A DNA stretch of 64,000 nt from Gammaproteobacteria bacterium (GTDB lineage: Bacteria; Pseudomonadota; Gammaproteobacteria; Enterobacterales; Alteromonadaceae): the NCBI GenBank assembly GCA_018222405.1, contig JAAFAI010000009.1:1-64000 (forward strand), in the 5' to 3' direction. The notes below the pieces were generated by a model that did not search any database, was not told the DNA's origin, and saw nothing but the letters and a program-made list of their open reading frames with translations. This document shows positions 46,438 to 58,222 of the stretch, piece by piece. The position numbers and the translations under genes were made by a program. Every line of letters begins with the position of its first letter. Position 1 is the stretch's first letter.

Positions 46438-47307
46438 CTACGACTTAACCGTCAGGGGGATTTTCAGGTAACACTTGCCATTGTCTTCCGCTGGCGGCAT
46501 CTGCCCCGCTCTGACATTCACCTGAATCGCAGGCAACAGCAGTTTAGGCACCGCCAGCGTGGCATCACGGGCTTCACGCATGGCCACAAAATCGGCCTGG
46601 CTGACCCCGTCCCTAACATGAATATTGTTGCGACGTTGCTCAATCACCGAGGTTTCCCAGGCGAAGTGGTCCCGCGTAGGGCTTTTATAGTCATGCCCCA
46701 CGAACATCCGGGTAGCCTCAGGTAAGTCGAGAATTTTACGGATGGACTGATACAGGGTATGTGCACTGCCGTTAGGAAAGTCCGCCCGGGCTGTACCGTA
46801 ATCAGGCATAAACAAGGTGTCGCCGACGAACACCGCATCTTCTATGTAGTAAGACACACAGGCCGGGGTGTGACCGGGCGTATGCAACACTTCAATATCC
46901 AAGTGTCCCAGCGTAATCATTTCGCCGTCGACAAACAGCTGATCAAACTGACTGCCGTCGGTGGGAAACGTGCTTTCCAGGTTATAAATCGCTTTAAACG
47001 TCGATTGTACCCGCCGAATATGGTCGCCTACCCCAATCAGTCCGCCGAGCTTTTCCTTGATGTAAGGGGCGGCAGTGAGGTGGTCGGCATGGGCGTGGGT
47101 TTCCAGGATCCATTCGAGTGTTAAGCCATTTTTGTCAACGTAACTGACAACTTTGTCAGCAAACTCATGGGAGATCTGCCCGGCTGCGGCGTCGTAATCG
47201 AGTACCGGGTCGATAATTGCGCAGCTGTTGGTCGCACGGTCAGTTACCACGTAGGTCACGGTAAACGTGGGCTCATGGAAAAATGACGTGATCTGAATTT
47301 TGCTCAT
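46438..47307 (-). CDS. persulfide dioxygenase (ETHE1/Blh type)
   Basis: Metallo-beta-lactamase-fold non-haem iron enzyme oxidising glutathione persulfide to sulfite. From the ATG at 47307 it is 289 residues (MSKIQITSFFHEPTFTVTYVV); an upstream TTG at 47358 is rejected because it falls inside the promoter. Iron ligands are in THAHADH, HTPGHTPA and VFVGDTLF, and VGHDY is also present. It is first in the operon with TauE and DUF442 genes. A sigma-54-type promoter at 47354-47369 fits control by a FisR-like activator, with sqr and fisR about 9 kb away. Confidence 0.92.
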   Translation of the reverse strand: MSKIQITSFFHEPTFTVTYVVTDRATNSCAIIDPVLDYDAAAGQISHEFADKVVSYVDKNGLTLEWILETHAHADHLTAAPYIKEKLGGLIGVGDHIRRVQSTFKAIYNLESTFPTDGSQFDQLFVDGEMITLGHLDIEVLHTPGHTPACVSYYIEDAVFVGDTLFMPDYGTARADFPNGSAHTLYQSIRKILDLPEATRMFVGHDYKSPTRDHFAWETSVIEQRRNNIHVRDGVSQADFVAMREARDATLAVPKLLLPAIQVNVRAGQMPPAEDNGKCYLKIPLTVKS

Positions 47308-47319
47308 TTGCCGGCTCTC

Positions 47320-47354
47320 TGTATCAAAATTAATTAGGTCTTCAGTTTGATACA
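47320..47354. repeat. inverted repeat at the persulfide dioxygenase promoter
   Basis: TGTATCAAA (47320-47328) and TTTGATACA (47346-47354) form a perfect 9-bp inverted repeat with a 17-bp spacer spanning the predicted start site. It may be a repressor operator or chance; I do not recognise it. Confidence 0.35.
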
Positions 47355-47369
47355 GCAAAAGCTTTGCCA
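47354..47369 (-). promoter_or_regulatory. sigma-54-type promoter of persulfide dioxygenase operon
   Basis: Minus-strand TGGCAAAGCTTTTGCT has GG and GC separated by exactly 10 bases, with -24 TGGCA and -12 TTTGCT, a good match to TGGCACG-N4-TTGCW. Initiation would fall near 47342, 35 bp before the ATG. I see no TGTCA-N4-TGACA dyad upstream; TCAATTGA at 47424-47431 is the nearest palindrome. The remaining gap up to the YkgJ-type gene shows only AT-rich sequence. Confidence 0.65.
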
Positions 47370-47941: not shown

Positions 47942-49453
47942 TTAGCTGAGAGGACTTAGTACCAGCGTGTCTTTACATTGCAGCTCGGCCGGATACACGT
48001 GGCTGGCAATGATGATAAGGCGCGCTGCGGCTTCGCGTTGTAACAAGGCAACCAACTGGCTGACCGCAGCCCCATCGAGCCCCTCAAAAGGTTCATCCAG
48101 CAGCCACACCGGTGAGTGGATAAGCATTGCCCGCGCAATGCCTAAGCGCTTGCGCTCACCGCCGGATAATACGCGGCCACCGGGGCCGAGCCACTCGCCG
48201 AGGTCATTCAACCGGGCAAGGCCCACTTTGGCCAGTACATCATTAAGCTGCGTTGCAGAAAACTCCCGACCCAGGGTCAGATTATGCCTGAGCGTAGCGG
48301 CCAGGATCACCGGTTGCTGCTCCAGATATAGCCAGCCTTCAATCAGGCCATCATCCGGCACAACACCATCGCAAAGGCGCTGTCCATGGCAGGCTACCAA
48401 CCCGCTGATAGCCTGCAGTAACTGAGATTTGCCTGCGCCGCTTGGTCCGCCAACCAGGTAAAGACCGCAGGCATCAAATTCCGCCGTCACTTTTTGTTCG
48501 GGTAGGTTAACAGAACCAAAGTCGGTAAGTTTGAGCGTGTTGGAAAGTGGTACGGCATCTGTCAGCTGCAGAGGCTCTACCGGTAGTGTTTTAAGTGCCT
48601 GTTTGCCCTGCACATAACGGTTCAGCGCGGGCTGACCATTGAAGGAACGGCCCAGCCAGTCACCGGCGCTGAGCAACAGCATGGGCACCACCAGCAACAG
48701 CGGGTTGCCGCTGTCACCCTCAAGCTGAGTATGAATTGCCAGATAAATAATGATCAGCATCAACGCCCAGGCAAGCCCCTGAAACACCCACATACTCTGT
48801 AACGTAAGCCGCTGCTGACTCGTTTCAGTCTGCCATACCGTTTGCGCAGAAGGTAACTGCGCTAACTGCTCTTTTACTGTTTTTAAATGCCAGATAGCCA
48901 CACTTCTGAGTACCACATCGGATTGCTCCCTGAATTCGTGCTCCTGTAATATAAGCTCTTCAGATAAAGTAAGTCCTTGCATACATAGCGCCGCCATGAT
49001 CACCAGCCAGATAACGCCCAGCGCGATTGTCCAGCCTGCGAAAGGGATATCAAGCACCAGCAGTGTTACTGCGCTCACCACCAGCATAAGTACCGCAGAC
49101 GCCTGCTGAGATACCCAGCCGACCCACACCGCAGCGATGGCCTCGGTATGACTGGCCAGCGCTTCAACTTCTTCACTACGCTGGCGGATCTGCGCGGCAA
49201 ACAGCCGTTCAAACAATTGCACGCGTAGCAGCGAGGTGAGTTGTAATAAATGCTTGTGACCTACCCACATGTGGGCATAACCACTACCAATGCGTATTAG
49301 CGCCAGGGCTCTGATAACGACCGCTGGCAGCATGTAGTTAAAATTGACCGGGGCCACGGCGCAGGCGGCAATAAACCACGAAGAAACAATTAAAATCGCC
49401 AAGCCGGCACCGCCGTGCAGCACTGCCAGTAACACGGTAATAAAGGCTTTCAC
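47942..49453 (-). CDS. cydC: ABC exporter subunit CydC
   Basis: One half of the heterodimeric CydDC glutathione/cysteine exporter (recently also described as a haem transporter), needed to assemble cytochrome bd. The 503-residue product has six N-terminal helices and an ATPase with Walker A GGPSGAGKS, signature VLSGGERKRLG and Walker B WLLDEPFEGLD. It is slightly shorter than E. coli CydC. It overlaps cydD by 4 bp and is last in the cydABX-DC operon. Confidence 0.93.
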   Translation of the reverse strand: MKAFITVLLAVLHGGAGLAILIVSSWFIAACAVAPVNFNYMLPAVVIRALALIRIGSGYAHMWVGHKHLLQLTSLLRVQLFERLFAAQIRQRSEEVEALASHTEAIAAVWVGWVSQQASAVLMLVVSAVTLLVLDIPFAGWTIALGVIWLVIMAALCMQGLTLSEELILQEHEFREQSDVVLRSVAIWHLKTVKEQLAQLPSAQTVWQTETSQQRLTLQSMWVFQGLAWALMLIIIYLAIHTQLEGDSGNPLLLVVPMLLLSAGDWLGRSFNGQPALNRYVQGKQALKTLPVEPLQLTDAVPLSNTLKLTDFGSVNLPEQKVTAEFDACGLYLVGGPSGAGKSQLLQAISGLVACHGQRLCDGVVPDDGLIEGWLYLEQQPVILAATLRHNLTLGREFSATQLNDVLAKVGLARLNDLGEWLGPGGRVLSGGERKRLGIARAMLIHSPVWLLDEPFEGLDGAAVSQLVALLQREAAARLIIIASHVYPAELQCKDTLVLSPLS

Positions 49454-51078
49454 GATACTACCTCCCTACCCATTTGCTGCACACTGCGGTTTTCTACCTG
49501 CCAGGTTCGGTTAAACCAGTCATCCGGCAGCGTCTTATGGGAAACCCATAAGACGGTTCGCCCCTGCCCCAGGGTATAAATGAGCTGGCTAAGGCTGTGA
49601 TGCTGCGCCTCAGGCAGGTGCGCGGTGGGCTCATCGAGCAGCCACACCGGCGCATCAGACAATAACAAGCGCGCCAGAGCCAGCCGCTGCGCCTGTCCGC
49701 CGGAAATAGCAGGCACTTCAGCCAGCGGCGTGTCGAGCCCGGCCGGCAGCGAATCCAGCCATGCCTTAAGCTCTACTTCACTAAGCACCTGTTCCAGCCT
49801 GGCGGTGGTAAAAGTGCGCTGATAATTAAGATTTCCACGCAGGGTGGCGAGTAACAATACCGGATGCTGAGTGAGCATCGCCACCCGACAAGGCAGACGA
49901 TAATTCCCCGTCCGTTGACCAGCGAGGGCTTCCAGTAACAGGGTTTTACCACTGCCGGACGGACCGGTTACGGCCACCCAGTCACCAGGCAGCAGCGTTA
50001 AGGCCTGGCTGGCAAGCAGGTTATCAGCCAGTTGTAAGCTAAACTGCTGCGGCTGGGTTAGTTCGTTAGCCGGCTCATCGAGTTGCCCGGCATCCAGCGA
50101 CGCAAGCCAGTCACCGGCAGCATCCCGAGCGGCTTCAGCTTCAGCCTTCTGGTGATAAAACTGCCCCAGCGCTTTAAGTTCAGAAAACAGCAATGGCGCG
50201 GTAAGTAACAACCATAAGCCAGAATGCAGCGTAAGCTCGGGGCCTAACGAGAACTCGCCCAATAAACTAAAACCAATAAACACCGCAATTAAGGCAACGG
50301 CAATGGTCGAAAAGAAATCCAGTACGGTATTAGATAAAAACGCCACGCCAACCACTTTCATGGTGCGTTCATTCAGGTCGTCACTGGCTTGTTTTAATAT
50401 CTCTTGTTCAATCTGATGGGAGCGAAAACTGGCCAGTAACCCGAGCGCCGTGAGGCGATCAACAAACAGGCTGCCTAGCCGGGTGAGAGCGACAAAGTGT
50501 TTCCGCTGAAGTGCCGCAGCGCCCTTACCCACCAAAATCATAAACAGCGGAATAAGCGGCAATGTGATCAACAGGCTGCCACCCACCACCGGGTTAACCA
50601 CCAAAATAAACAGCAGCGCGAAAAAGGGCGTAAGCACCGCCACGTATTGTTGCACCTGATAGTCATAGCGCCAGTGAACCAGCGCGCTGATGTGTCTCGT
50701 CCATACCGATTGCCAGAAATAAGCCGAATGGGTGCTGACTAACGATGTTTGCTCTGCCACCAAACGCTCGGCAAAGCGTTTTTCAAGGCCCCTAAGTAAA
50801 TCGGATTTTGCCTGCAAGGTGCGACGATAAGCATCACCCTGCAGCAGCCAGGCCAGTATTAACGCAGCCGCCAGACCCAGCCAGTCACTCATATCCGGCT
50901 GCTGAGCCAGCACTACCCAAGTATGCATCATCGCGGCAAACAGCCAGTAGCCGGCAATTAAACATAACAGCCGGATGGTTTTTATGGCCACCAATAAAAA
51001 CAAGGTGCTGCGCGATGCAACACCCTGCTCGGTGACGGTGGCGTTAAACCACCGTGGAAGGGACTGGCTCTCTTTCAC
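49450..51078 (-). CDS. cydD: ABC exporter subunit CydD
   Basis: Partner of CydC. The 542-residue product begins at a GTG (51078) that shares a base with the cydX stop (TAGTG). Six helices precede an ATPase with Walker A TGPSGSGKT, signature ISGGQAQRLA and Walker B WLLDEPTAHLP. The Asp after the Walker B Glu of the D-loop is replaced (AHLP), as often in one half of asymmetric ABC heterodimers. In E. coli cydDC is a separate operon; here it follows cydABX directly. Confidence 0.93.
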   Translation of the reverse strand: MKESQSLPRWFNATVTEQGVASRSTLFLLVAIKTIRLLCLIAGYWLFAAMMHTWVVLAQQPDMSDWLGLAAALILAWLLQGDAYRRTLQAKSDLLRGLEKRFAERLVAEQTSLVSTHSAYFWQSVWTRHISALVHWRYDYQVQQYVAVLTPFFALLFILVVNPVVGGSLLITLPLIPLFMILVGKGAAALQRKHFVALTRLGSLFVDRLTALGLLASFRSHQIEQEILKQASDDLNERTMKVVGVAFLSNTVLDFFSTIAVALIAVFIGFSLLGEFSLGPELTLHSGLWLLLTAPLLFSELKALGQFYHQKAEAEAARDAAGDWLASLDAGQLDEPANELTQPQQFSLQLADNLLASQALTLLPGDWVAVTGPSGSGKTLLLEALAGQRTGNYRLPCRVAMLTQHPVLLLATLRGNLNYQRTFTTARLEQVLSEVELKAWLDSLPAGLDTPLAEVPAISGGQAQRLALARLLLSDAPVWLLDEPTAHLPEAQHHSLSQLIYTLGQGRTVLWVSHKTLPDDWFNRTWQVENRSVQQMGREVVS

Positions 51079-51209: not shown

Positions 51210-52346
51210 TTAATAAATCGCGTGAGATGAGTCTAGGTCGCTGTTTTTAATGCGACCGCGCATCACGTAGAAGCCGTAAGCGGTATAGCTTAAAACAATG
51301 GGTACAAACACACAGGCTACACCAAACATTATTTTCAGGGTCATTTCACTGGATGTTGCATCCCACACGGTTAAGCTTGCCACCGGCATAGTGGTGCTTG
51401 GCATCAGGAATGGGAACATCGAGAAACCCGCAGTCAGAATAATACCTGCCATCATCAGCGCGCTGCTCACAAACGCCCAGCCACCGCGGCCGGCTTTGGA
51501 GAAGAAAGCGCAGGCCACGCCCGCCCCAATGCCTAACAGAGGCGCCACCACCATCCAGGGATATTTGCTGTAATTAGCCATCCAGGCCCCGGCTTCAACC
51601 GCCACTTCTTTCTTGAGCGGGTTAGAAGTAGCCAGCGTATCCACGGCTGAAGTAACCACAAAGCCATCCAGTCCAAAGGCAACCCACAGGCCAGCCAGAA
51701 TAAACAGCACCACAGTTGCCAGTGACAGTACAACAGATACTGCCCGTGCCCGCACTTCAATAAAGCTGTCGGTTTTCATTTGCAGCCAGGTAGCGCCGTG
51801 ATTGAGGATCATTGCTACGGAAACCAAACCCGCTACCAGTGCAAATGGCGTAAGCAGGCCAAAAAACGAACCGGTATAGGTGGCTTTTAAATTGCCATCC
51901 AGCTCAAACGGTACGCCCAGCAACAGGTTACCAAAGGCCACGCCAAAGATTAACGCAGGCACGAAGCCAGACGTGAACAGCGCCCAGTCCCAGCTGGTAC
52001 GCCAGCGCTTATCTTCTAACTTACTGCGAAAATCAAAGCCCAACGGACGCATCCACAGAGCAATCAGCACCAGCGCCAGCGCCAGGTAAAAGCCCGAGAA
52101 AGCGGTAGCATAGATCATCGGCCAGGCTGCAAAAATAGCGCCGCCGGCGGTGATAAACCACACCTGATTACCGTCCCAGTGCGGACCCACCGTGTTAATC
52201 ATCACGCGGCGCTCGTCGTCGGTTTTACCAATCAGGGTGAGCAGTGCGCCAACCCCTAAATCAAATCCATCGGTGATGGCAAAGCCAATCAGCAGTACAC
52301 CAACCAGCACCCACCAAATTACTCGTAGTACTTCATAATCAATCAT
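51210..52346 (-). CDS. cydB: cytochrome bd ubiquinol oxidase subunit II
   Basis: Structural partner of CydA. The 378-residue product has nine predicted helices, starts MIDYEVLRVIWWVLVGVLLIGFA and keeps the family block GNQVWFITAGGAIFAAWP. Length matches E. coli CydB (379). It overlaps cydA by 4 bp. Confidence 0.97.
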   Translation of the reverse strand: MIDYEVLRVIWWVLVGVLLIGFAITDGFDLGVGALLTLIGKTDDERRVMINTVGPHWDGNQVWFITAGGAIFAAWPMIYATAFSGFYLALALVLIALWMRPLGFDFRSKLEDKRWRTSWDWALFTSGFVPALIFGVAFGNLLLGVPFELDGNLKATYTGSFFGLLTPFALVAGLVSVAMILNHGATWLQMKTDSFIEVRARAVSVVLSLATVVLFILAGLWVAFGLDGFVVTSAVDTLATSNPLKKEVAVEAGAWMANYSKYPWMVVAPLLGIGAGVACAFFSKAGRGGWAFVSSALMMAGIILTAGFSMFPFLMPSTTMPVASLTVWDATSSEMTLKIMFGVACVFVPIVLSYTAYGFYVMRGRIKNSDLDSSHAIY

Positions 52347-53917
52347 GCGTTTGCTCCTTGAGTACCCAGGCCAATAGCATCATCCAGTTTCTTGTCGTCT
52401 TCCGGTGGAACCGGCCCCATTTTGGCGTATTTCTTCATCAGGTAGAAGCCAATCACAAACATCGTTGCGTAGAACAAGGTGTAAGCCACCAGGGTAGTCA
52501 CAACGTCAGAAACAGACAGGTTAGACACGGCGGTATGTACTGGTAACACTTCGGCGATAGACCAGGGCTGACGGCCATACTCGGCAACAAACCAACCAGC
52601 TTCACAGGCAATCCACGGTAGTGGCAGCGACCATACCGCCGCTTTCAGCAACCAGCGCGGCTGAGTGATGCGGTGTTTAGTGCTGTAATAGAATGCCGCA
52701 ATAAACAGCGCCAGCATCAAAAAGCCTGCTACCACCATCAGGCGGAAAGAGTAAAACAATGGTGCTACCGGTGGGATGCTGTAATCCACCGCTTTTTCCA
52801 ACGCTTCTGGTGTAGGCTGAGTGATATCGTCAGTGAACGGTTCCAGCAACAGCGCATAGCCTAAGTCGTCTTTATTACGCTCAAACATTTCAAGTTCAGC
52901 GGGCGTTGCTGTGCCGTCTTTCACTTTTTCCAGCTGCTTCTGTGCCTGTACGCCTGACAAAATTCGCACCCGGTGAATCTCTTTGAGGTCTTTGATCCCC
53001 ATCACTTCTTCATCCAGTGAACGGGTAGCAATAATGCCCATGGCCCACGGGATCTGAATAGCGAAGTCCATTTTTTCTTCTTCGTCATTCGGAATGCCGA
53101 ACAAGGTAAAAGCTGCCGGCGCCGGGTGAGTTTCGTACTCAGCTTCCACAGCCGCCAGTTTCACTTTTTGCACGTCACCCAGCTCGTAACCGCTTTCGTC
53201 ACCTAAAACAATTACCGACAGGGTAGCCGCCAGACCAAAGCTGGCCGCAATCGCAAAAGAGCGACGGGCAAAGGCAATATGCTTATGCTTGAGCAGATAG
53301 TAACTGGAGATAGCCAGCACAAAAATGGCACCGGTGACATAGCCTGCAGAGACAGTGTGGACAAATTTAACCTGGGCTACCGGGTTAAAAATCACTTCGC
53401 TGAAGCTGGTCATTTCCATGCGCATAGAATCGGTATTGAAGCTTGCTCCCACCGGATACTGCATCCAGCCGTTGGCAATCAAAATCCACAGCGCAGAAAA
53501 GTTTGAGCCAATGGCCACCAGCCAGGTTGCCATTAAGTGCTTCACTTTGGACATTTTGTCCCAGCCGAAGAAGAACAATCCCACGAAGGTAGATTCTAAA
53601 AAGAACGCCATTAACCCTTCAATGGCCAACGGAGCGCCAAAGATGTCGCCCACGTAGTGAGAATAGTAAGACCAGTTCATGCCAAACTGGAACTCCATCG
53701 TTAATCCGGTAGCAACGCCGATGGCAAAGTTAATCCCGAACAACTTGCCCCAGAACTGGGTCATTTGTTTGTAGATTTCTTTACCGGTCATTACATATAC
53801 CGACTCCATAATGGCTAACAAAAACGTTAGCCCGAGGGTCAGCGGGACAAAGATAAAGTGGAACATTGCTGTTAAAGCAAATTGTAACCGCGATAGTTCT
53901 ATCAACGTATCGCTCAT
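52343..53917 (-). CDS. cydA: cytochrome bd ubiquinol oxidase subunit I
   Basis: Catalytic subunit of the high-affinity terminal oxidase, carrying haems b558, b595 and d. The 524-residue product has nine helices, with the haem ligands in MFHFIFVPLTLG (His19-type), VKFVHTVSAGY (His186-type) and FRLMVVAGF (Met393-type). A long Q-loop is present, as in E. coli. Cytochrome bd resists sulfide, nitric oxide and cyanide. A sigma-54-type promoter and TGTCA/TGACA dyads upstream suggest control by the neighbouring FisR-like activator. Confidence 0.97.
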   Translation of the reverse strand: MSDTLIELSRLQFALTAMFHFIFVPLTLGLTFLLAIMESVYVMTGKEIYKQMTQFWGKLFGINFAIGVATGLTMEFQFGMNWSYYSHYVGDIFGAPLAIEGLMAFFLESTFVGLFFFGWDKMSKVKHLMATWLVAIGSNFSALWILIANGWMQYPVGASFNTDSMRMEMTSFSEVIFNPVAQVKFVHTVSAGYVTGAIFVLAISSYYLLKHKHIAFARRSFAIAASFGLAATLSVIVLGDESGYELGDVQKVKLAAVEAEYETHPAPAAFTLFGIPNDEEEKMDFAIQIPWAMGIIATRSLDEEVMGIKDLKEIHRVRILSGVQAQKQLEKVKDGTATPAELEMFERNKDDLGYALLLEPFTDDITQPTPEALEKAVDYSIPPVAPLFYSFRLMVVAGFLMLALFIAAFYYSTKHRITQPRWLLKAAVWSLPLPWIACEAGWFVAEYGRQPWSIAEVLPVHTAVSNLSVSDVVTTLVAYTLFYATMFVIGFYLMKKYAKMGPVPPEDDKKLDDAIGLGTQGANA

Positions 53918-54059
53918 GGGACTCTCCTTTGATGTTTCTAAATACTAAACCGGGGTTGCCTGTAGCCTGGTCAGAGTTACCCATGCTACAGGTCTGAAAT
54001 AATTGCTACCTGAGAGGCCAACAGCCTCAGGCACTTTTTAACGCTTTATAAATTGCACT

Positions 54060-54077
54060 TTGCATAACTTGCGCCAA
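54060..54077 (-). promoter_or_regulatory. sigma-54-type promoter of cydABX-DC
   Basis: Minus-strand TTGGCGCAAGTTATGCAA has GG and GC exactly 10 bases apart: -24 TGGCGC (one mismatch to TGGCAC) and -12 ATGCA (one mismatch to TTGCA). Predicted initiation is near 54050, giving a leader of about 130 nt. Dyads typical of an enhancer site lie 94-144 bp further upstream. An FNR-like half-match TTGAT-N4-TTGAA is seen at 54099-54112 and could add oxygen control. Confidence 0.6.
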
Positions 54078-54170
54078 TCAGAAAAAAAATTTAAAATATT
54101 GATATAATTGAATTAATTTAAACTCATTAGCTCAACAGGTGGAAATCTTCTAAGCAGCGTGGCGCATGGT

Positions 54171-54204
54171 TGACATATTTGTCAGTAGTCTGTCAGAACT
54201 GACA
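54171..54204. promoter_or_regulatory. TGTCA/TGACA dyad cluster upstream of cydA
   Basis: Two dyads spaced by 20 bp, two helical turns: TGACA-N4-TGTCA (54171-54184) and TGTCA-GAAC-TGACA (54191-54204). The second has the same form as TGTCA-AATT-TGACA in front of fisR. A further palindrome, GGCGGTCAAATTTTGATCGCC-like with arms at 54247-54267, lies upstream. I propose enhancer sites for the FisR-like activator. Confidence 0.5.
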
Positions 54205-54300
54205 AGTCTCGTTTTCAGAGAAGTCGCATGAAGATACAGCAATGCTGGCGGTCAAATTTTGATCGCCATCAACTAACTGAAAAGGGAGTCGTTTGAGAGT

Positions 54301-54341
54301 ATCAGGGAGTGCCTGATCAGGGCAGCGGGCATACTGCCCGC
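54301..54341 (-). terminator. tandem hairpins between the sqr-cytochrome and cyd operons
   Basis: ATCAGG-GAGTG-CCTGAT (54301-54317) and GCGGGC-ATACT-GCCCGC (54325-54341) are perfect stems just after the stop of the cytochrome gene at 54369. The T-run is weak, so termination or mRNA protection are both possible. Confidence 0.45.
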
Positions 54342-54368
54342 AAGTTATTTTGGGGATCTGACAGAGCT

Positions 54369-54788
54369 TTACTGTATGGAGAAAGTGCGATGGCAGGCAT
54401 TGCACACGCGCATTAAATCCACCACATGCTGACGAACTTCTTCCTCGCTCGCGTCCGGGTTTTGAATTGCCTGCCAGTGAGGCCGCATGCTTTGCGCCAT
54501 AGCACGAAAAGCCGGCGGTATTTGCTGACCCAAACCTTTAGGGCGATTCGCCTGCTCGCGGGTTTGCAGGTTCGCGACACGCTGACGCAACTCCTCCCGC
54601 TTGCCCTCCAGCAGCAATTGCTGGGTATCGGTTAGCGCTTCAAGCATGTCGCGCATATGGCCCAGCACAAACGCTTTTTGCTTCTCGTTAAGCGTTACCG
54701 CCATACGCTCATCAGCGGCCAGCGCATTTGCCGCTGACCATGTCAGACAGAGTGCCACCAGCAACGCACTAAGAGAGCCCTTTGCCAT
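54369..54788 (-). CDS. periplasmic monohaem c-type cytochrome
   Basis: Exported protein of 139 residues with a signal peptide ending ANALAA and one haem-binding motif CNACH near the C-terminus (about 131-135), followed by RTFSIQ. Helix-rich composition and the C-terminal haem site resemble cytochrome c' or b562-like four-helix bundles. It is third in the sqr operon, one base after the upstream gene. A role in taking up electrons or binding a gas ligand during sulfide oxidation is possible but inferred. Confidence 0.75.
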   Translation of the reverse strand: MAKGSLSALLVALCLTWSAANALAADERMAVTLNEKQKAFVLGHMRDMLEALTDTQQLLLEGKREELRQRVANLQTREQANRPKGLGQQIPPAFRAMAQSMRPHWQAIQNPDASEEEVRQHVVDLMRVCNACHRTFSIQ

Positions 54789-54789
54789 G

Positions 54790-55362
54790 TTATTCTCCAG
54801 CCTGATAGGTCACCGTAAAAGCCCCGCGTAAATCTCCCGCGGCAAAGCCGGTTGCTTCATCTTCCGGGTATTGCTGGTTAATCGCTTCCCTGACTGGTTC
54901 CGCCAGCGATGCGCCATGACAGTTGAGGCATAAGCCGCCAGTCATAATTGGCGCCATAAAACGATATTTACCGGCTGCTTCATCAACATGAACGGTTGTC
55001 AGAGCGCCGGGATCCAGCCCCTCTTCCAGCCCTTTCACCATGGCCATCAGCGATGATTTCTCCCAGCTGTCTGCGCGGTTTTGCGGGTTACGTACTTTCA
55101 ACGCGGTACGCCCAACCTGCCAGCCATCAGTGCTTAACTCTGCCGCAATGGCCGGTGCGATGTCCTTACACACCTGCACACCATTAGGTGACCCACCGGC
55201 TTTTACCGCCTGCTGCAGGTTTTGTTTCAGCGTTTTGCCCAGTTGCATGGCCTTGTGCTTCGCCTGCGCTTTAAACTCTGCTTCGCTAAGCTGCCCGGCC
55301 TGAGCGGCCAGGGGAAGCAATAAGCACCCCATTAACACTGCTCTATTAGTGAGTCTGATCAT
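54790..55362 (-). CDS. DUF3365 (Tll0287-like) c-type haem protein
   Basis: Exported protein of 190 residues with a signal peptide (to about 22) and a DUF3365/Tll0287-like domain: VRNPQNRADSWE in the middle, then GGLCLNCHGA with a CxxCH haem site near residue 144, and DLRGAFTV at the end. Such domains are PAS-like haem sensors or cytochromes. It overlaps the sqr stop by 4 bp (ATGA) and is second in that operon. An electron-carrier or sensor role is open. Confidence 0.8.
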   Translation of the reverse strand: MIRLTNRAVLMGCLLLPLAAQAGQLSEAEFKAQAKHKAMQLGKTLKQNLQQAVKAGGSPNGVQVCKDIAPAIAAELSTDGWQVGRTALKVRNPQNRADSWEKSSLMAMVKGLEEGLDPGALTTVHVDEAAGKYRFMAPIMTGGLCLNCHGASLAEPVREAINQQYPEDEATGFAAGDLRGAFTVTYQAGE

Positions 55363-56642
55363 TTGTCATCCTGCTCCAGTCTTTCGATACCCAGTGCCTT
55401 CAAGACGTATTTCTCGTATACAGGTTCGCTGGTACCGGTTTTCATCTTACGCATGAAATACTTTTCAAAGGCAATCTTGGCCAGATGCACCCATTTACCC
55501 TTCTTAAACCAGGTAACATTACGCGGCGGAATTTGCGGCATGGCCACAAATGCAGCACCGGTGTCACCCATATCAGCCAAACAAATTGCATGCCAGGTGC
55601 CTTTTGTTGAAGGCGGTTTATCGTCCACAATGATGGATTTCATATTATGCGCAATGGCTGTCATCATGGTTTCAATCATGTAACCGGTTTTCGGCGTACC
55701 GGTTGGGACCGGTGTTGCCTCAACCGGCGGGATAGCCACGCATACACCACCCGAGAAGATATTAGGGTACCTAGGAGAACGCTGGAATTCATCGGTGATG
55801 ACAAACCCTTTGGGGTTACACAACCCTTCCACATTGGCCACCGCCGGAACGCCACCAAAAGGCGGGATCAGCATCGAATGATTGAACGGCTCCTCATAGG
55901 TAAATTCCACCTCACCTTTTCGATTGAGCTCAGACACATACATCATGCCCTCTTCAACCTTATCCACCTGCGCGTTGCAGATCCATTTGATGTTGCGGTT
56001 GCGCAGTTCTGATTCGAGCATTGATTTTGAGTCACCCACGCCGCCCAGCCCCAAGTGGCCGATGTAAGGTTCACTGGTCACAAAGGTCATGGGGACTTTG
56101 TGACGAATTTTGGCGTCGCGCAGCGCCTTATCCAGAATAAAGGCATATTCGTAGGCCGGGCCAAAACAACTGGCGCCCTGAAATGAGCCCACTACTACCG
56201 GGCCGGGATTCGCCACCAGCTTCTCAAAGTCGGCATAGCAATGTTCGGCATGATCCAATGTACAAACAGACTGAGTGAACCCTCCGGGGCCAGCCCCTTC
56301 AATTTGGTCAAAGGCCAGACGCGGGCCGGTAGCAATAATCAGATAGTCATAGTCGATGATTTCACCTTCGCTGGAGACCAGTTGATTGGCCTCAGCATCA
56401 ATTTTGTCGACCCGGGCACATTTAAACGCGATCTTCTTTTTGGCCAGGTATTTTTCAATAGGCATCGTGACTGCACCGGCTTCGCGCCACCCTACTGCGA
56501 CCCAGGGGTTGGAAGGTACAAACCTGAACTCTTCCCGCTCATTCACCACCATGACTTCATGGCCAGCCCCCAGCGCTTCTTTGACTTCATAAGCGGCTGG
56601 CATGCCGCCGGTTCCTGCACCTAACACCACTATTTTTGCCAT
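55359..56642 (-). CDS. sqr: sulfide:quinone oxidoreductase
   Basis: Membrane-associated flavoprotein that oxidises sulfide to sulfane sulfur and reduces quinone. From the ATG at 56642 it is 427 residues with the FAD-binding VLGAGTGGMPAA at the start. The three redox cysteines fall at 127 (SVCTL), 159 (GASCFGP) and 354 (AICLADMGD), close to 128/160/356 of the Acidithiobacillus enzyme, so it should be active. It leads an operon with two c-type haem proteins and is divergent from fisR. Electrons would enter the quinone pool used by cytochrome bd next door. Confidence 0.93.
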   Translation of the reverse strand: MAKIVVLGAGTGGMPAAYEVKEALGAGHEVMVVNEREEFRFVPSNPWVAVGWREAGAVTMPIEKYLAKKKIAFKCARVDKIDAEANQLVSSEGEIIDYDYLIIATGPRLAFDQIEGAGPGGFTQSVCTLDHAEHCYADFEKLVANPGPVVVGSFQGASCFGPAYEYAFILDKALRDAKIRHKVPMTFVTSEPYIGHLGLGGVGDSKSMLESELRNRNIKWICNAQVDKVEEGMMYVSELNRKGEVEFTYEEPFNHSMLIPPFGGVPAVANVEGLCNPKGFVITDEFQRSPRYPNIFSGGVCVAIPPVEATPVPTGTPKTGYMIETMMTAIAHNMKSIIVDDKPPSTKGTWHAICLADMGDTGAAFVAMPQIPPRNVTWFKKGKWVHLAKIAFEKYFMRKMKTGTSEPVYEKYVLKALGIERLEQDDK

Positions 56643-56752
56643 AATCATTCTCTTTTATCGTTATTGGCTCTGCTAGTCCTGCCACACTGGTGGCTAACAA
56701 ATCCGTTGAACAAGTCTTTCTGTTAACAAGGCTCCCTATTAACAAGTTGTTT

Positions 56753-56768
56753 ACCAATATTCGTGCCA
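56753..56768 (-). promoter_or_regulatory. sigma-54-like promoter of the sqr operon
   Basis: Minus-strand TGGCACGAATATTGGT has a perfect -24 (TGGCACG) with correct spacing, but the -12 reads TTGG instead of TTGC. Initiation would be near 56741. The dyad at 56856-56869 lies about 95 bp upstream. The -12 mismatch lowers confidence. Confidence 0.5.
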
Positions 56769-56855
56769 TTGTGGTGTAAACATAGTAGGATGATGTTTTA
56801 TATTAGATTTTTAATATATTTAACGGTAAAACGGCTTGTGAAGCACATTGAGCTG

Positions 56856-56869
56856 TGTCAAATTTGACA
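56856..56869. promoter_or_regulatory. perfect palindrome between sqr and fisR
   Basis: TGTCAAATTTGACA is a perfect 14-bp palindrome of form TGTCA-N4-TGACA, 49 bp before the fisR ATG and about 95 bp before the sqr sigma-54-like promoter. It is a candidate binding site of the FisR-like activator itself, serving sqr activation and possibly autoregulation. Confidence 0.6.
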
Positions 56870-56917
56870 ACCAAGCTCAGCTTTCAGCTGCCATATTTGT
56901 CTCAGGAGAAAGGGGTT

Positions 56918-58222
56918 ATGAACGCATCGCTTATTCAGTCAATGATTAACGCCATTGATAAACCAGCGATATTCATTACCAATGATTACGTTATTCAGGC
57001 GGTTAACGATGCCTATCGTGAAACTTATGATACCGAAGTTATCATTGGTAACAGCACCTGTTATGCTATATCCCACCACAACGATGCCCCCTGCGACCAG
57101 CGTGGTGAAGAATGTCCTTTAGCCCAGTGTCAGAAAACCAACCGGCCCAGCAGTGTGGTGCACATTCACAACACCAATGATGGCAAAACCTATTGCGATA
57201 TCTTAATGAAGCCGGTGCGTGATGAAGATGGTATGACCATAGGCTACCTGGAAATCCTCGATCGCATTAGCTACGCCGCTGCCGACTCGCAGAAGAACAA
57301 AATGATTGGCGGTTCAGACAACTTTAAACAAATGCTTAATCGCATTAACCGAGCTGCACAGTCGGAGATTGCGGTTTTACTGCAAGGCGAAACCGGCGCG
57401 GGTAAAGAGCTGGTCGCTCAGGCCGTTCACCAGTCCAGCCGCCGTAAAGACAAACCTTTTGTGGTAATTGAATGTACCGGATTAAACGAAAGCTTGTTTG
57501 AGTCTGAACTGTTTGGCTATGAAAAGGGCGCGTTTACCGGAGCAACTAACAGCAAGAAAGGCCTTATCGAAGTGGCCAACGGCGGCACCGTGTTCTTCGA
57601 CGAAATTGGTGACGTACCGCTTAATATGCAGGTTAAGCTGCTGCGCTTGCTGGAAACTCAGTGCTACCGCCCGGTTGGCGGCTTAAAACAAAAGAAGGCA
57701 GACTTTCGGCTGGTATGCGCTAGTCACAAAAACCTGCTGGCGATGGTGGAAAAAGGCGAGTTTCGTCAGGACTTGTATTTCCGTATTGCCGGCTTTCCTA
57801 TCTACCTGCCTGCATTACGCGAACGAAAATCGGATATTCCCCTGTTGTGTAAGCATTTCCTGTCGGGAAGTGAGCATCGACATAAGCACTTTAGCGAGCG
57901 GGCACTGCAAACCCTGTCGCAATACAGCTTTCCGGGCAACATCCGCGAACTAAAGAGTATTGTGGAACAGGCGGCACTGATGTCGAACGATGACGATATA
58001 CTGGTTAGTGATCTGCCGCCGCAGATCCTTGGGGTTGGCCCGGCCGAAACCCAGGCTATAGCGGAAGACATTATGCCGCTCGAGCAGGCCGAACAGGTGT
58101 ATCTGGAAAAAATCTGTAAGCACTTCGATGGTAGCCCGGATGAACTTGCCAATAAACTTGATGTAAGTACTCGCACACTCTACAGAAAGCTACAAAGATA
58201 CAATATTAAACTTAAAGGTTGA
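56918..58222 (+). CDS. fisR: FisR-like sigma-54-dependent sulfane-sulfur-sensing activator
   Basis: Enhancer-binding protein of 434 residues. The ATG at 56918 is chosen because AGGAG lies nine bases upstream; a GTG at 56855 would run through the palindrome. An N-terminal PAS domain (about 1-120) carries Cys48, Cys59 and Cys66, with the same 11- and 7-residue spacing as Cys53/64/71 of Cupriavidus FisR, which senses sulfane sulfur. The AAA+ domain has Walker A GETGAGKE (157) and the sigma-54 contact GAFTGA (204-209). A Fis-type HTH ([15 protein letters not shown]) ends it. It is divergent from sqr, supporting the identification. Confidence 0.85.

Follow-up and report, generated by a model that had tools for sequence, protein, structure and literature searches.

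The cytochrome bd genes of an Alteromonas-like bacterium, cydABDC, are very likely members of a FisR regulon, in which sulfane sulfur would activate FisR and the genes would be induced from a sigma-54 promoter together with sqr, which encodes sulfide:quinone oxidoreductase. As predictions from the DNA, both the promoter and the link from FisR to cydA are strongly supported. An earlier note on this DNA had proposed a sigma-54 promoter upstream of cydA with dyads like those at sqr and fisR. The proposal is borne out by a conserved footprint, by the co-occurrence of the site with FisR, by the gene neighbourhood, by the presence of rpoN in the genome and by the sensor cysteines of FisR.

The window is the whole stretch of DNA that was analysed, 64,000 nucleotides from an assembly of 4.96 Mb whose FisR is 98% identical to the FisR of Alteromonas oceani and A. 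alba. FNR and about 15 sigma-54 activators are encoded in the same genome. On the minus strand, leading away from the divergent fisR, the order of the genes is sqr, a Tll0287-like (DUF3365) gene, a small CxxCH gene, cydA, cydB and the cydDC-like genes, followed further along by pdo (persulfide dioxygenase-like), a TauE family gene and a phosphatase-like gene. The Tll0287-like and small CxxCH proteins are encoded at 54369-55362, between sqr and cydA, and DUF3365 relatives recur next to fisR in many loci. The genes central to the analysis are:

56918-58222, plus strand: fisR, with PAS, sigma-54 activation and Fis-type HTH domains (Pfam; start ATG favoured over GTG 56855)
55359-56648, minus strand: sqr, sulfide:quinone oxidoreductase (PF07992; the top NCBIfam match is an SQR model, far under its cut-off)
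52343-53917, minus strand: cydA, cytochrome bd subunit I (ATG at 53917; Pfam PF01654, E 3e-175)
51210-52346, minus strand: cydB (TIGR00203 above cut-off; PF02322)
49450-51078, minus strand: cydD-like ABC exporter gene, downstream of cydB (top NCBIfam match TIGR02857, CydD, under its cut-off)
47942-49453, minus strand: cydC-like ABC exporter gene (the top NCBIfam matches are CydC models, under cut-off)

Many relatives align only from about the favoured ATG at 56918. The open reading frame taken from the first start, GTG 56855, abuts or overlaps the dyad at 56856-56869. No known RNA elements were found in 53800-57000. The candidate regulatory sites of cydA and sqr are:

54060-54077, minus strand: predicted sigma-54 promoter (-24/-12) of cydA, TTGGCGCAAGTTATGCAA, GG-N10-GC (scoring, conservation)
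54171-54184, unstranded: proximal FisR-type dyad TGACATATTTGTCA, candidate site (motif scan, conservation)
54191-54204, unstranded: distal FisR-type dyad TGTCAGAACTGACA, candidate site (motif scan, conservation)
56753-56768, minus strand: sigma-54-like promoter of sqr, TGGCACGAATATTGGT, in which the -12 element is GG, not GC
56856-56869, unstranded: FisR-type dyad TGTCAAATTTGACA, 87 bp upstream of the sqr promoter
56889-56902, unstranded: second, weaker sqr dyad AGACAAATATGGCA (minus-strand reading), 33 bp from the first

Sigma-54 promoters have the form GG-N10-GC, close to TGGCACG-N4-TTGCW. The cydA string is of this form, and it lies on the minus strand exactly where a promoter with strict GG-N10-GC spacing had been read before; transcription is predicted to start near 54050, with an expected leader of about 130 nt. 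By itself, the sigma-54-like core is weak evidence. When scored with a hand-weighted form of this consensus, which is not a published matrix, an equal or better maximum was obtained in about 3% of 300 shuffles of its own 450-bp region, and the core string alone is therefore unconvincing; 19 16-mers of the whole window, the cydA core included, score at least as high as this core.

The two cydA dyads are 20 bp apart from start to start, in agreement with the paired half-sites 20 bp apart of the earlier note, and lie 94-127 bp upstream of the promoter string. The note had given 94-144 bp, of which the lower figure holds and the upper is slightly too large. Its TGTCA-N4-TGACA palindrome near fisR is the dyad at 56856-56869, between sqr and fisR. 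The half-sites at cydA are indeed of the same kind as at sqr and fisR, and are better described as TGNCA-N4-TGNCA than as TGACA/TGTCA; cydA dyads in general have this form, and there are usually two, 19-21 bp apart. The 4.96-Mb genome contains TGTCA-N4-TGACA six times, including twice in the window, and the same pattern read backwards, as a control, five times. The cydA dyads were checked for an origin in a tandem repeat and no such repeat was found.

It is the combination of dyads and sigma-54 site that is convincing, because the complete architecture (two dyads 19-33 bp apart with a sigma-54 site, correctly ordered and spaced) is found at only two places in the 64 kb, sqr and cydA, and in none of 40 shuffles. 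The shuffles in this test, as in that of the 450-bp region, were order-1 Markov sequences. In the named loci of Alteromonas, Shewanella, Paraglaciecola and Bowmanella, the promoters that face sqr combine a strong -24 element (TGGCAC or TGGCAT) with a -12 element that, wherever a site was seen, reads TTGG or TTGT, not TTGC. The sqr dyads across the named loci are mostly 29-34 bp apart, with 22 bp in L015 and L025.

Conservation of GG-N10-GC and of the dyads in relatives had been set as a test of the proposal, and across ten close-clade species the core is kept and the flanks are not. In this footprint 14 of 17 columns of the sigma-54 core are invariant, and the dyads have 43% and 64% invariant columns, compared with 6% of the flanks. 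In the genus, cydA of this type is present in 44 of 59 genomes, and no FisR-type match was found in any of the 15 genus genomes that are without it. FisR without a stop in the match is encoded in 34 of the 44 (the G056 match runs off its contig), and in all 34 fisR is near cydA on the same contig. The other ten cydA-bearing genomes are G039, with a broken fisR, G053, with a 49%-identical partial match at the edge of a contig, and eight that have only other sigma-54 activators.

The genus scan covered 450 bp upstream of cydA, with a threshold score of 20 for the sigma-54 site. The dyad pair was found in 33/34 genomes with FisR, compared with 2/10 without intact FisR, and a sigma-54 score of at least 20 in 32/34 compared with 4/10. 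Both were present in order in 31/34 and 2/10, respectively (Fisher p 3.6e-5, uncorrected for kinship). The incomplete FisR-bearers are G014 and G033, which have the dyads and no GG-N10-GC over the threshold, and G009, which has one dyad. Where genus genomes have the architecture (33 of them), the cydA dyads are spaced by 19-21 bp, about two helical turns, and the promoter is 84-204 bp away. The architecture is kept without intact FisR in G048 (L154) and in G039 (L161, the broken fisR), which are natural tests of site decay versus use by something else; the nearest relatives of G048 on the CydA tree have FisR. In this tree (45 rows, with Alteromonas sp. a30 added) the genomes that have neither FisR nor the site fall into three groups; five changes are required for either trait, a number with which a phylogeny-aware sign test could not become significant.

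The FisR protein has matches above cut-off to PF00158 (sigma-54 activation) and PF02954 (Fis-type HTH), and GAFTGA is present in the translation. Cys48, Cys59 and Cys66 are conserved in 102 of 102 distinct sequences, whether these are linked to cyd, to sqr or to neither. The third sensor cysteine of Cupriavidus FisR is C71. The FisR of Cupriavidus pinatubonensis JMP134 is alike in being a sigma-54 activator of sulfur genes and in the C53/C64 spacing of its cysteines (PMC8614764, PMC9774590, PMC12170894), as Cys48 and Cys59 are separated by the same 11 residues. According to the accessible text, C53 and C64 of the Cupriavidus protein form a tetrasulfide (PMC8614764) and three Cys are conserved (PMC9774590).

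We infer that sulfide is the signal, and that cydA itself is induced. The cysteines are no proof of the signal, because the FisR of Acinetobacter baumannii mediates the sulfide response of its own operon without them. The alternative that survives best, which we consider unlikely, is that FisR and sigma-54 drive cydA while the PAS cysteines sense oxidants, nitric oxide, metals or general redox state. Cytochrome bd protects against many stresses, fisR lies beside cydAB without sqr in some lineages, and the A. baumannii protein, as far as the accessible text goes, works without these cysteines. Against this alternative, the 11-residue spacing of C53-C64 is kept in all 102 sequences, and sqr is within 8 kb of fisR in 45 of the 81 neighbourhoods counted, with cydA present as well in 16.

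Gene order outside the window bears on a second alternative, that cydA is transcribed from the sqr promoter as the tail of an operon and the local site is a relic. Among 35 named FisR loci (L003-L037, some ended early by contig ends; they overlap in part with the genus genomes and are counted apart), 20 hold cydA at 60% identity or more. Upstream of it the sigma-54 score is at least 20 in 18/20 and the full architecture is found in 16/20, with a part missing in L027, L028, L031 and L032. In six loci (L027, L028, L029, L030, L034 and L035) fisR and cydA are directly divergent neighbours, without an intervening sqr. Read-through would agree with the common direction of sqr, the Tll0287-like gene and the small CxxCH gene, and with the absence of a minus-strand terminator from 53900-54400 by a simple scan. 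Against it, the sigma-54 site is kept in five of the loci without an intervening sqr (L027, L029, L030, L034 and L035) and, in a weaker form scoring 19.2, in L028; it is also kept where cydA is on another contig (L164). We regard read-through as highly unlikely.

The L164 case is that of Alteromonas sp. a30, whose cydA is carried by a contig (L164) other than that of fisR (L013) and retains both dyads and the promoter (TGCCATTAATGTCA, TGTCATTAATGGCA and TGGCACAGCTTATGCT). Genomes in which the two genes are unlinked cut both ways, with a30 for the FisR link to cydA and Shewanella and Paraglaciecola MAG_65 against it. Shewanella has FisR together with sqr or pdo, and neither a dyad pair nor a sigma-54 site over the threshold was found at its unlinked cydA in any of 8 distinct genomes (L167-L176 and L178, three of the genomes being reached twice), and the rule is therefore not general. 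Paraglaciecola MAG_65 (L166) encodes FisR and has no such architecture at its unlinked cydA.

The fisR-cydAB pairing recurs in other gammaproteobacterial families, with a less complete architecture. There were 57 class-level FisR matches outside the genus, and in the 40 neighbourhoods examined cydAB (at least 50% identity) is beside fisR in six (L197, L207, L209, L212, L215 and L225); a more distant cydA-like gene is beside fisR in L211 and L213. The region facing fisR has a sigma-54 score of at least 19 in five of the six, the exception being L212, and dyads are present as a pair in L207 and L225, singly in L197 and L209 and not at all in L212 and L215. In L197, L207, L212 and L225 an additional gene would fit in front of cydA. 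The one that separates fisR from cydAB in L225 (6864-7907) has a weak metallo-beta-lactamase match; that in L207 (6978-7604, minus strand) looked PDO-like by eye, a reading that was dropped as it has no Pfam match. Three of ten further FisR genomes from the same taxonomic order have cydA nearby, and the promoter and dyads are upstream of it in G315 and G228 and absent in G373. On the FisR tree (83 sequences) cyd linkage changes 10 times by parsimony, with at least 4 changes forced by well-supported branches, a count in which some linkage may be hidden by short contigs.

Two further features upstream of cydA were absent from the earlier note, and were identified with consensus strings for IHF and FNR sites:

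54092-54104, minus strand: IHF-like site, matching the consensus WATCAANNNNTTR, between the dyads and the promoter
54259-54272, unstranded: FNR box TTGATGGCGATCAA (minus-strand reading), the only perfect match in the window to the consensus TTGATNNNNATCAA

The IHF-like site is one of four perfect matches in the 64 kb, counting both strands. An IHF site between the activator sites and a sigma-54 promoter is common, though not universal, and a perfect match in this position was found in 5/10 of the close clade and is absent in most other genomes of the genus. The upstream region of cydA contains TTGAT-N4-ATCAA, the FNR consensus, and the FNR protein is encoded, which predicts FNR control. A perfect box was found in 4/10 close relatives and a near match in another three. 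Upstream of cydA, 42/44 genus genomes, FisR-bearing or not, match the consensus at 8 or more of its 10 positions, in a count made without a shuffle control, and FNR-like boxes are also found upstream of cydA in relatives that lack fisR.

In the note, sigma-54 control was contrasted with the usual ArcA/FNR control of cyd operons. The former is supported; that FNR has been replaced is not, given the perfect box, the FNR gene and the boxes in fisR-less relatives. Because the perfect FNR box and the IHF-like site are present, control by FisR and sigma-54 is probably added to FNR control and does not replace it, which we read as FNR control for low oxygen and FisR/sigma-54 control for sulfur. The same FNR evidence would suit a third alternative, even less credible than read-through, in which FNR, or a different sigma-70 activator, alone drives cydA and the sigma-54-like string and dyads have no action on it. 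This leaves the footprint, the match with fisR presence and the shared architecture at sqr unexplained, and a simple consensus scan of 53900-54400 gave no sigma-70-like promoter (0.7 expected). Least probable of all is a different sigma-54 activator at the dyads, such as NorR with nitric oxide as the signal: NorR sites have TGTCA/TGACA-like arms with one base fewer between them than in the cydA dyads, and the genome has its many sigma-54 activators to choose from, but NorR was dropped as the binder as none of 16 matches in the genome passes the cut-off of the NorR model (NF003451), and the same dyads occur at sqr and fisR and track FisR across the genus.

FisR may have a third, intragenic enhancer at pdo, where the candidate sites are:

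47354-47369, minus strand: sigma-54-like promoter of pdo, TGGCAAAGCTTTTGCT (motif scan, relatives)
47145-47158, unstranded: dyad inside the pdo coding sequence, candidate downstream enhancer (motif scan, codon conservation)
47124-47137, unstranded: second, weaker intragenic dyad, 21 bp further into the gene

No dyad was found upstream of pdo in the window, and the intragenic dyads are about 200 bp downstream of the sigma-54 site. Codons at the dyads have a mean identity of 0.91 (8 codons), compared with 0.46 elsewhere (53 codons), over positions with a conserved residue in five relatives, two of them close. The longest pdo reading frame (TTG 47358) overlaps the promoter, and the start is probably ATG 47307. 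The promoter and both intragenic dyads are present in six close named loci (L003, L004 and L006-L009), and L024 and L033 have the promoter with one or two dyads; neither promoter nor dyads were found at pdo of Shewanella L016 and L020. Caution is needed, because L023 has an intragenic dyad without a close promoter. Among 246 family genomes 122 had a pdo match, and the best 30 of these 122 were surveyed, some being genomes of the named loci. A promoter within 70 bp and an intragenic dyad were found in 3 of the 16 with FisR (G000, G017 and G344) and in 0 of the 14 without; G147 and G334 have the promoter and dyads upstream of pdo instead, and the other 11 FisR-bearers have neither arrangement.

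For cydA, we infer FisR binding, looping, the inducer and expression as follows. FisR would sit upstream of cydA on the two dyads, about two helical turns apart, and be modified by sulfane sulfur; its PAS domain has the cysteines that are joined by a polysulfide bridge in the Cupriavidus protein. Through a DNA loop, probably aided by IHF at 54092-54104, the ATPase of the modified FisR would act on sigma-54 RNA polymerase positioned at 54060-54077. Induction of cydA would coincide with that of sqr, cydABDC would form one transcript, and the upstream FNR site would add low-oxygen control. Electrons could then pass from sulfide through SQR, quinone and cytochrome bd to oxygen, via an oxidase that sulfide does not poison. 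A broader reading, which we put at a little under an even chance, is that FisR, besides regulating sulfide detoxification, is a respiratory switch that uses sigma-54 to install the whole SQR-quinone-cytochrome bd chain from sulfide to oxygen, that this coupling has repeatedly arisen or been kept in the Gammaproteobacteria, sometimes with cydAB facing fisR, and that pdo has its intragenic enhancer.

In E. coli, cydAB is under ArcA/FNR control, and the FNR box is a feature shared with the region described here. It differs in that the E. coli cydAB promoter is not known to have a sigma-54 element or enhancer. The FisR of C. pinatubonensis JMP134 reportedly targets sulfide-oxidising genes, going by the title of Li et al. 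2017, and cydAB as a target is new here as far as we found. In A. baumannii, fisR is likewise divergent from pdo-sqr-tauE, which FisR drives and which has a predicted sigma-54 promoter, and cydAB expression rises with sulfide (PMC7315123). Unlike the protein described here, this FisR is without the cysteines, and dependence of cydAB on it is not reported in the accessible text (PMC7315123). In a related gammaproteobacterium, Alishewanella sp. WH16-1, cytochrome bd also gives sulfide resistance, under CydE (GbsR-type), which differs from FisR in being a repressor released by sulfate, with no sigma-54 mentioned in the accessible part of the article (PMC6096048). The cioRAB genes of Chromobacterium violaceum similarly combine a bd oxidase guarding against sulfide with a dedicated regulator, the difference being repression by a MarR-family protein (PMC11837568).

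A study of Cupriavidus necator concerning rpoN and cydA2B2 (PMC10164946) was considered as prior art and rejected, as the mutation it describes upstream of cydA2B2 is predicted to create a sigma-70 promoter; its accessible text reports no sigma-54 control of cyd. In the literature searched only two articles mention both FisR and cydA (PMC7315123 and PMC8148161), and FisR control of cyd is not stated in their accessible text. No report of FisR or sigma-54 control of cyd was found in the literature searched, many subscription papers being outside the search.

Cytochrome bd keeps cells respiring in sulfide, and sulfide raises cydAB in several bacteria (PMC7315123). The sensor that links sulfide to cydAB is not given in the accessible literature examined, and the conserved FisR/sigma-54 architecture is a concrete link, easily tested in cultured marine bacteria. 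If the link is true, a terminal oxidase would be under an ATP-dependent, tightly gated type of promoter and, as predicted from the DNA, the cell could keep respiring while burning off toxic sulfide.
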